From positions 1-64,000 of the forward strand of contig JANWXD010000009.1 in NCBI GenBank assembly GCA_025055455.1: a stretch of 64,000 bases of DNA. The letters run 5' to 3'. Positions 20,741 through 22,318 of the stretch are shown piece by piece. The stretch comes from Bryobacteraceae bacterium. Its GTDB lineage: Bacteria > Acidobacteriota > Terriglobia > Bryobacterales > Bryobacteraceae. Each line of letters begins with the position of its first letter. Position 1 is the first letter of the stretch. The position numbers and the translations under genes were made by a program. Below the pieces are notes generated by a model. It did not search any database. It was given only the letters and a program-made list of their open reading frames with translations, and was not told the origin of the DNA.

Positions 20741-20766
20741 GCGAAAGGAACCACCCAGGAGGAAAC

Positions 20767-21456
20767 ATGCCCTTGCTTCGGGAACGCGATCGTCAGGAGC
20801 TCAAAGACCGGTTCGCGGAGAGACTCACCGGGCCGGTCAAGCTCGTCGTGTATACCCAGCGCCAGTCCCCGATCTGGGTTCCGGGCATGCCGACCTGCGA
20901 ATTCTGCGAGCAGACGGAACAGCTCGTCCGGGAGGTGGCGGAGCTTTCCGACAAGCTCGCCGTCGAGGTGTACGATTTCGTCAAGGACGAGGCGGGGGCC
21001 CGGGCTCAGGGCATCGACAAAATCCCCGCCATCGCGCTCATCGGCGCTCGGGATTATGGCATTCGGTTCTACGGGATTCCAAGCGGTTACGAATTCGGCA
21101 CGCTCGTCGAGGCGATCCTCGACGTTTCGCGCGGCGCCACGGACTTGAGCCCCGATGTCAAGCAGCAGCTGGCCAAGCTGAACCGCGACGTGCACATCCA
21201 GGTCTTCGCCACGCCGACTTGACCCTACTGCCCGCGGGCCGTGCGCACCGCACACCAGATGGCGATCGAGAGCGACCACGTCCGCGCCGACGCCGTCGAG
21301 ATCACGGAGTTCCCCCAGCTGGCCAGCCGCTACATGGTGCGGGGCGTTCCAAAGGTCGTGATCAATGAAGTGGGAAGCTTCGAGGGCGCCGTTCCGCCGA
21401 GCATCTTCGTCGCACATGTGCTGCGGGCGGCAGGCGTAGACGGGGAAACTTCCTGA
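20767..21456 (+). CDS. selenocysteine-containing protein disulfide oxidoreductase (glutaredoxin-like, two thioredoxin folds)
   Basis: A 229-residue protein if the in-frame TGA at 21220-21222 is read as selenocysteine (Sec152). The first thioredoxin fold carries C44-E-F-C47 (MPTCEFCEQT). The second reads ATPT-U-PYCPRAVRTAHQ, aligning with the CPYCP active site of archaeal PDO/glutaredoxin-like proteins; the TGA falls exactly on the first Cys, giving U-x-x-C. The frame continues after it with a normal fold (VEITEFPQLASRYMVRGVPKVVIN, including the cis-Pro GVPK) to a TGA stop at 21454-21456. Family members reduce disulfides, and the C-terminal site is the more reactive one. Ordinary annotation would split this into a 151-residue protein and an orphan fragment. 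A TGC to TGA mutation or a read error would mimic this, but placement at a redox Cys strongly favours Sec. Confidence 0.85.
21237..21256 (+). promoter_or_regulatory. candidate bacterial SECIS hairpin after the Sec TGA
   Basis: GTGC (21241-21244) pairs with GCAC (21250-21253), with an outer GG/CC pair across a small internal loop; the apical loop lies about 23 bases after the TGA. This distance suits a bacterial SelB-binding element, but the stem is short and loop bases are not clearly of the best-known type. Confidence 0.4.
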
Positions 21457-21494: not shown

Positions 21495-22010
21495 TCAAAA
21501 CGGCTCCGCTGCACCCGACTCGAGCAGTGCCCGCCGCTGGAGCATTTGGTAGATGTGGTGCGCCTCGTGGTAGACCATGTACTCGACCTGAAACTGCACG
21601 TCGTAGTGGGGAAACTCCGGGTGCCGACCTGAGCGGCGCCACTGCTCCGGCGCAAGCTGCCGCAGCCGCCCTAACAGACGCTCCCGGCCGAGCAAGTAAT
21701 GTCCTAAGGCATGAGCCGTGGGCTTCGCGGCTAGGACGAAGAACTCCTCGTCGTGTTCCGGATCGTACGGGTCGATAAGCGGCTCCTCCTCGGCGAGCAT
21801 CGCCTCGATGCGTGTCTCGAAGATCTGTTGCACCCGGTGCAAATGACAGACCAGCTCCTTGAGTGACCACTGGTGGGGCGCCGGGCGCCGCGAGAGGAGC
21901 TCTTCGGACAGTCCTGAGGCCAAGCGCCGCACCTCCAGGGCCTGATCGCGCAGCCGGACGAGGAGCCGGAGATTTAGATCCGTCCTCTCCTGACCTTGGC
22001 CGGTGGACAC
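21495..22010 (-). CDS. DinB-like four-helix metalloprotein
   Basis: A 171-residue DinB/YfiT-superfamily protein: a helical bundle with the His triad pattern (HQWSLKELVCHLHRVQ for the first His and HEAHHIYQM for the last two). Members bind a divalent metal and include thiol-dependent transferases of unknown substrate. The start is set at GTG at 22010. A TAGAAT element (22018-22023) ends 7 bases upstream, exactly the spacing of another leaderless-looking gene at 41215. A longer GTG start at 22097 would run through this promoter and gives an unconvincing N-terminus. Confidence 0.8.
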   Translation of the reverse strand: MSTGQGQERTDLNLRLLVRLRDQALEVRRLASGLSEELLSRRPAPHQWSLKELVCHLHRVQQIFETRIEAMLAEEEPLIDPYDPEHDEEFFVLAAKPTAHALGHYLLGRERLLGRLRQLAPEQWRRSGRHPEFPHYDVQFQVEYMVYHEAHHIYQMLQRRALLESGAAEPF

Positions 22011-22318
22011 AGGTTCGATTCTACCCGAGGGCACTTTGTCGCCTGAGGGGGTGGAGGATATGGTCCCGCACCGTGCGGCGTAAAGTTCACCAGTCACAGG
22101 CCTGGGCCTCTCATTGCCGCCGTATTTTCAATCGGATACGTAGTGTATCCTTTTGCTGGGCGGATACGGTCCCTTACCCTGGAAGCGGATCAGGGAATCC
22201 GGTCCAGCCTGACTCGACCTCTACCTTGCACCTCGACGAGACCCACCCTGCGACCCTGCCAGCTCCTCGATCGGAGCTATCCTCACTCGTTCGGCCGGAT
22301 TCCCCACTTCTACCAGCT
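22011..22318. other. 308-bp intergenic region with GGATAC inverted repeat
   Basis: No credible gene. It holds the DinB promoter at one end. A perfect inverted repeat GGATAC-N5-GTATCC (22134-22150) and a further GGATAC (22162-22167) look like a dimeric regulator's site, about 110-140 bp before the DinB start. Confidence 0.5.
22018..22023 (-). promoter_or_regulatory. -10 element (TAGAAT) for a leaderless DinB-like gene
   Basis: TAGAAT on the minus strand, 7 bases before the GTG at 22010, so the transcript would begin at the start codon. Confidence 0.5.

Follow-up and report, generated by a model that had tools for sequence, protein, structure and literature searches.

An in-frame TGA predicted to encode selenocysteine in a protein disulfide oxidoreductase gene of a Bryobacteraceae bacterium

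Introduction

The window analyzed here is a stretch of 64,000 nucleotides (contig JANWXD010000009.1, positions 1 to 64,000, forward strand) from the 3.95-Mb, 98.75% complete genome of a Bryobacteraceae bacterium of the Acidobacteriota (assembly GCA_025055455.1). One of its reading frames reaches a TGA after 151 codons and then stays open, which raises the question of whether this TGA terminates a short protein or is decoded as selenocysteine (Sec) within a longer one. The initial annotation had favored the latter and proposed a selenoprotein form of protein disulfide oxidoreductase (PDO) with a U-x-x-C active site. The distinction is of consequence for the gene catalog, as gene calling that does not support Sec would stop at residue 151 and miss the main catalytic domain of the enzyme.

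Results

Direct reading of the sequence identified a 151-amino-acid open reading frame that starts at the ATG at 20767 and ends at the TGA at 21220 to 21222. The next stop in frame is a second TGA at 21454 to 21456, and position 21456, to which the frame had initially been reported to stay open, was found to be the last base of this second stop. Read-through of the first TGA would generate a product of 229 residues, with the TGA at residue 152 followed by PYCPRAVRTAHQ. The features of the locus are as follows.

20757 to 20766, + strand: ribosome-binding region, with AGGAGG a few bases 5′ of the ATG (direct sequence reading)
20767 to 21456, + strand: Sec-PDO gene of 229 codons plus the TGA stop at 21454 to 21456, as predicted from the TIGR02187 match, phmmer, structural model, and superposition
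20896 to 20907, + strand: N-terminal redox motif CEFC, C44-E-F-C47 (translation and alignment)
21220 to 21222, + strand: in-frame TGA, predicted Sec (residue 152), at the first position of the C-terminal UPYC (column is Cys or TGA in all homologs)
21223 to 21264, + strand: candidate bacterial SECIS hairpin directly 3′ of the UGA, weak alone (folding; family-level signal)
21349 to 21351, + strand: P195, the cis-Pro of the C-terminal thioredoxin fold (no variation in the alignment)

A redox motif was found in each domain, namely CEFC at residues 44 to 47, intact as first described, and UPYC at residues 152 to 155, together with the cis-Pro P195. Downstream and convergent with the PDO gene, a DinB_2 superfamily protein is encoded at 21495 to 22097 (− strand), with weaker matches to mycothiol-dependent families. 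No tRNA was found when the window was searched, and Rfam gave no match in the window, including around the UGA.

The read-through product was found to be a full-length match to NCBIfam TIGR02187 (PDO_seleno_TRX; residues 6 to 220, E-value 1.2e-79, 266.5 bits compared with a curated cut-off of 185), with its C-terminal half also matching the Pfam families Thioredoxin_3 and Glutaredoxin. The PDO/glutaredoxin-like structures of Pyrococcus were recovered by phmmer at an E-value of 2e-51. AlphaFold2 modeling, performed on the window and locus proteins with Sec written as Cys, gave a model of high confidence (pLDDT 95.3, pTM 0.92), which superposed on PDO crystal structures, including those of Pyrococcus and Aquifex, at TM scores of 0.87 to 0.90 for 1j08, 1a8l, 2ayt, and 2ywm and of about 0.85 to 0.90 when 2hls is included. 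Identity to the Pyrococcus PDO structures was 37 to 41% by structural alignment. In the model and its superpositions, two thioredoxin folds are predicted in the PDO arrangement, and the Cys/Sec position lies directly before the helix spanning residues 155 to 168, where the nucleophile of thioredoxins is canonically found. The gene product is a member of the PDO/TIGR02187 family with two predicted thioredoxin folds, and its activity is predicted to be that of a protein disulfide oxidoreductase. The proposal that the codons on both sides of the TGA belong to one two-domain protein, cis-Pro included, is upheld by the full-length family match, the residue-by-residue homology of the second domain, and P195.

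Homologs were then compared at the position of the TGA. A TIGR02187 search of 396 genomes of the phylum detected a PDO above cut-off in 72 of these, all of which were fetched; a contig scan using the window protein as the sole query found only eight distant loci, including one Sec form (L108). Across 81 PDO genes the residue-152 column was found to hold either Cys (TGC/TGT) or TGA, with no third state, in agreement with the view that the TGA takes the place of the initial Cys in a C-terminal CPYC motif. TGA was present in 30 genomes of the phylum including this one (31 PDO genes) and in one Chloroflexota gene (L108). The initial annotation had considered that close relatives might all end at this TGA; instead, all 32 TGA genes continue into the second domain.

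The genome was also found to encode the machinery for Sec decoding, which had been suggested as a check. A tRNA-Sec with anticodon UCA lies on the window's own contig, 8 kb past the window end (G000:C145:72063-72157), and selA (514 bits), selB (347 bits), and selD (378 bits) all scored above their curated cut-offs. The selD gene (L019, G000:C79:103471-104394) also contains an in-frame TGA, close to its start and with a strong hairpin 3′ of it, and is, by its sequence, a second selenoprotein gene of the same genome. A further candidate was sought in formate dehydrogenase, for which this genome has no gene above cut-off and no in-frame TGA. A selA gene exceeding its cut-off was found in 83 of 101 genomes sampled from this family, in which the Sec trait therefore appears to be old.

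These data bear directly on the possibility that a TGC or TGT was turned into TGA by faulty sequencing or assembly and that the gene encodes an ordinary Cys-Cys PDO. The assembly is fragmented (145 contigs), some relatives (L059 and L106) carry Cys at the residue-152 column, and the SECIS candidate of the window is weak, all of which would fit such an error. However, 29 other genomes of the phylum carry a TGA at the identical alignment position, and this genome has a complete Sec machinery together with a selD gene bearing an in-frame TGA. An error is considered very unlikely, given that 30 genomes of the phylum, this one included, share the TGA.

A slightly less probable alternative is that the TGA is a real stop, in which case the locus would be a pseudogene or encode a truncated protein with one domain; in the standard code TGA is a stop, and the upstream part alone would make a 151-residue protein. 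The coding signature was, however, found to run on past the TGA with the same pattern. When compared with the homolog at L062, nucleotide identity at codon positions 1, 2, and 3 was 0.65, 0.73, and 0.26 before the TGA and 0.67, 0.71, and 0.21 after it. Amino acid identity was 0.55 upstream and 0.59 downstream of the TGA, and GC3 was 0.83 on both sides. Protein-level conservation and codon signature are unchanged for 77 codons past the TGA, a truncated product would lack the main catalytic domain and with it cis-Pro 195, and in every other relative with the TGA the frame reads on into the second domain. Genome-wide recoding of UGA as another amino acid, such as Trp, has a negligible likelihood, as the window gene and its neighbors end on TGA as well as on other normal stops, selA, selB, and tRNA-Sec are present, and homologs have Cys rather than Trp at the site.

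Overall, the sel genes, the TGA column of the homologs, and the unchanged coding signature support the proposed selenoprotein PDO with a U-x-x-C site. We consider it highly probable that UGA 152 is decoded as Sec in a PDO whose C-terminal U-P-Y-C is catalytic; Sec insertion, the direction of the redox reaction, and the partners are inferred.

Sec insertion would be expected to involve an RNA hairpin downstream of the UGA. For 32 Sec and 48 Cys genes, the folding of 36-nt segments was compared with that of synonymous-codon shuffles matched to the GC3 of the gene concerned. The lowest mean z-score of the Sec genes (−1.09) was obtained for the 36 nt immediately after the UGA, to which the excess was confined, whereas the same segment in Cys genes had a mean z of −0.26 (−0.33 for high-GC3 Cys genes). 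Many Sec genes displayed a stem of 6 to 8 bp whose loop, GGUC or GGU, lies about 18 to 19 nt after the UGA; a loop G at this spacing is as expected for bacterial SECIS elements. In the window gene, an extended hairpin of about −13.8 kcal/mol was predicted, with an upper stem GUGC[GCACC]GCAC and a possible G-first loop, the G lying about 23 nt after the UGA. This hairpin was no more stable than its synonymous alternatives (z about 0), and the window gene does not retain the conserved stem of the main Sec clade. Thus, of the hairpin anticipated downstream of the TGA, the family-level folding excess was found, while the window's own structure is plausible but weak; a SECIS element is likely in the window gene, with this hairpin as the candidate.

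The presence of selB was compared between Sec and Cys forms. It was above cut-off in all 30 Sec-PDO genomes and in 15 of 42 Cys-PDO genomes (raw Fisher P-value 2e-9, kinship ignored). Because the genomes share kinship, this P-value is inflated and was discounted after a tree-based test, in which two to three independent pairs were for an association of Sec with selB and none against, which is the expected direction but too few pairs for significance.

On the best tree of 80 PDOs, 11 Cys/Sec changes were counted, of which at least 7 are forced by well-supported branches, and one genus was found to hold both states (L034, TGC; L049, TGA). The window gene does not fall within the main Sec clade but in a mixed region where the tree is poorly resolved. 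Among 150 sampled genomes of its family, no PDO was found besides this one, the single weak match covering only the C-terminal domain, within a longer open reading frame; this suggests that a lineage using Sec acquired the gene by transfer. We tentatively propose, at somewhat less than even likelihood, that the PDO was gained by gene transfer into a lineage already using Sec, and that Sec arose here separately from the main Sec-PDO clade. If so, repeated switching between Cys and Sec, even within a genus, would make the PDO a good system for asking why Sec is gained and lost.

The N-terminal CxxC was found to be lost in several lineages (f25, f40, and f86) that keep the C-terminal UxxC, suggesting that the functional core of the enzyme is the Sec site. 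Loci without the N-terminal CxxC (with, e.g., ADPES or GGSES) are L070, L074, L086, L091, and the f25 group (L078, L080, L081, L083, L087, L088, L090, L092, and L094); at the C-terminal site L086 keeps CxxC and the others UxxC.

Gene neighborhoods were also examined, and the window locus belongs to none of the recurrent neighbor-gene clusters of PDO. At 15 loci of the main Sec clade (L068, L073, L075, L078 to L081, L083, L084, L087, L088, L090, and L092 to L094), a small Cys-rich protein (CxxCG...CPKC...HACxQCxHFDPxARFEC) that is absent at the window is encoded directly 5′ of the PDO gene on the same strand. This protein has no Pfam match and only weak similarity to NCBIfam zinc-ribbon families, and is possibly a redox or zinc partner of the PDO. 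Two near-identical Sec-PDO copies (L092 and L094) were detected on different contigs of one genome (G538), representing either a duplication or an assembly artifact.

Discussion

Our results suggest a model in which SelA, SelB, SelC, and SelD would decode UGA 152 as Sec, aided by the RNA hairpin directly 3′ of the UGA. The C-terminal U-P-Y-C may then serve as the catalytic site of thiol/selenol-disulfide exchange, with the N-terminal CEFC helping in isomerase-type reactions. Sec as the C-terminal nucleophile would provide faster attack and more resistance to oxidative damage. In Sulfolobus, the PDO receives electrons from NADPH via thioredoxin reductase and passes these to peroxiredoxins (NADPH-TrxR-PDO-Bcp relay); thiol transfer depends mainly on its C-terminal site, and isomerase activity needs both sites (PMC7465337). 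By analogy, the window PDO would probably be kept reduced by NADPH via thioredoxin reductase, of which the genome has one above cut-off (G000:C53:39386-40285), and may deliver electrons to peroxiredoxins or protein disulfides; such an NADPH-TrxR-PDO-peroxiredoxin relay is its most likely role.

That this family has a Sec form is not in itself new, and the novelty implied by the initial annotation was overstated. A “homolog of AhpF N-terminal domain (Grx-like domain protein)” of TIGR02187 with a UxxC motif (ABB15282.1) appears as a predicted bacterial selenoprotein in the 2006 survey (PMC1794560) and in reviews that cite it (PMC9312934, PMC13188914). The family has been catalogued as such since the 2006 survey of Zhang et al., in which three selenoprotein families were counted in Acidobacteria (PMC1794560), and Sec forms also occur in Asgard archaea (2026 review, PMC13188914). 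Sec-PDO is a known kind, and the NCBI family name itself carries “seleno”. Our literature search found no paper describing Sec-PDOs in Acidobacteriota, which is weak evidence. What the present analysis reveals is that Sec-PDOs are widespread in the phylum sample, with frequent exchange of Cys and Sec, such that the advantage of Sec over Cys becomes testable in one small enzyme. PDOs have been described as exclusive to thermophiles (PMC7465337), which is doubtful because many members were found in the Acidobacteriota sample.

When compared with known systems, the window gene resembles the TIGR02187/PDO_seleno_TRX selenoproteins of Zhang et al. (2006) in family and UxxC motif; however, it is of a different lineage (Acidobacteriota) and lies outside the main Sec clade. 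The archaeal and Aquifex PDOs (1a8l, 1j08, 2ayt, and 2hls) share with the window protein two thioredoxin folds and two CxxC-type sites but have Cys as the C-terminal nucleophile, where the window protein is predicted to have Sec. The N-terminal domain of AhpF is homologous to the tandem thioredoxin folds of the window protein, which in contrast stands alone, without the flavoprotein part, and scores far below the AhpF equivalog cut-off.
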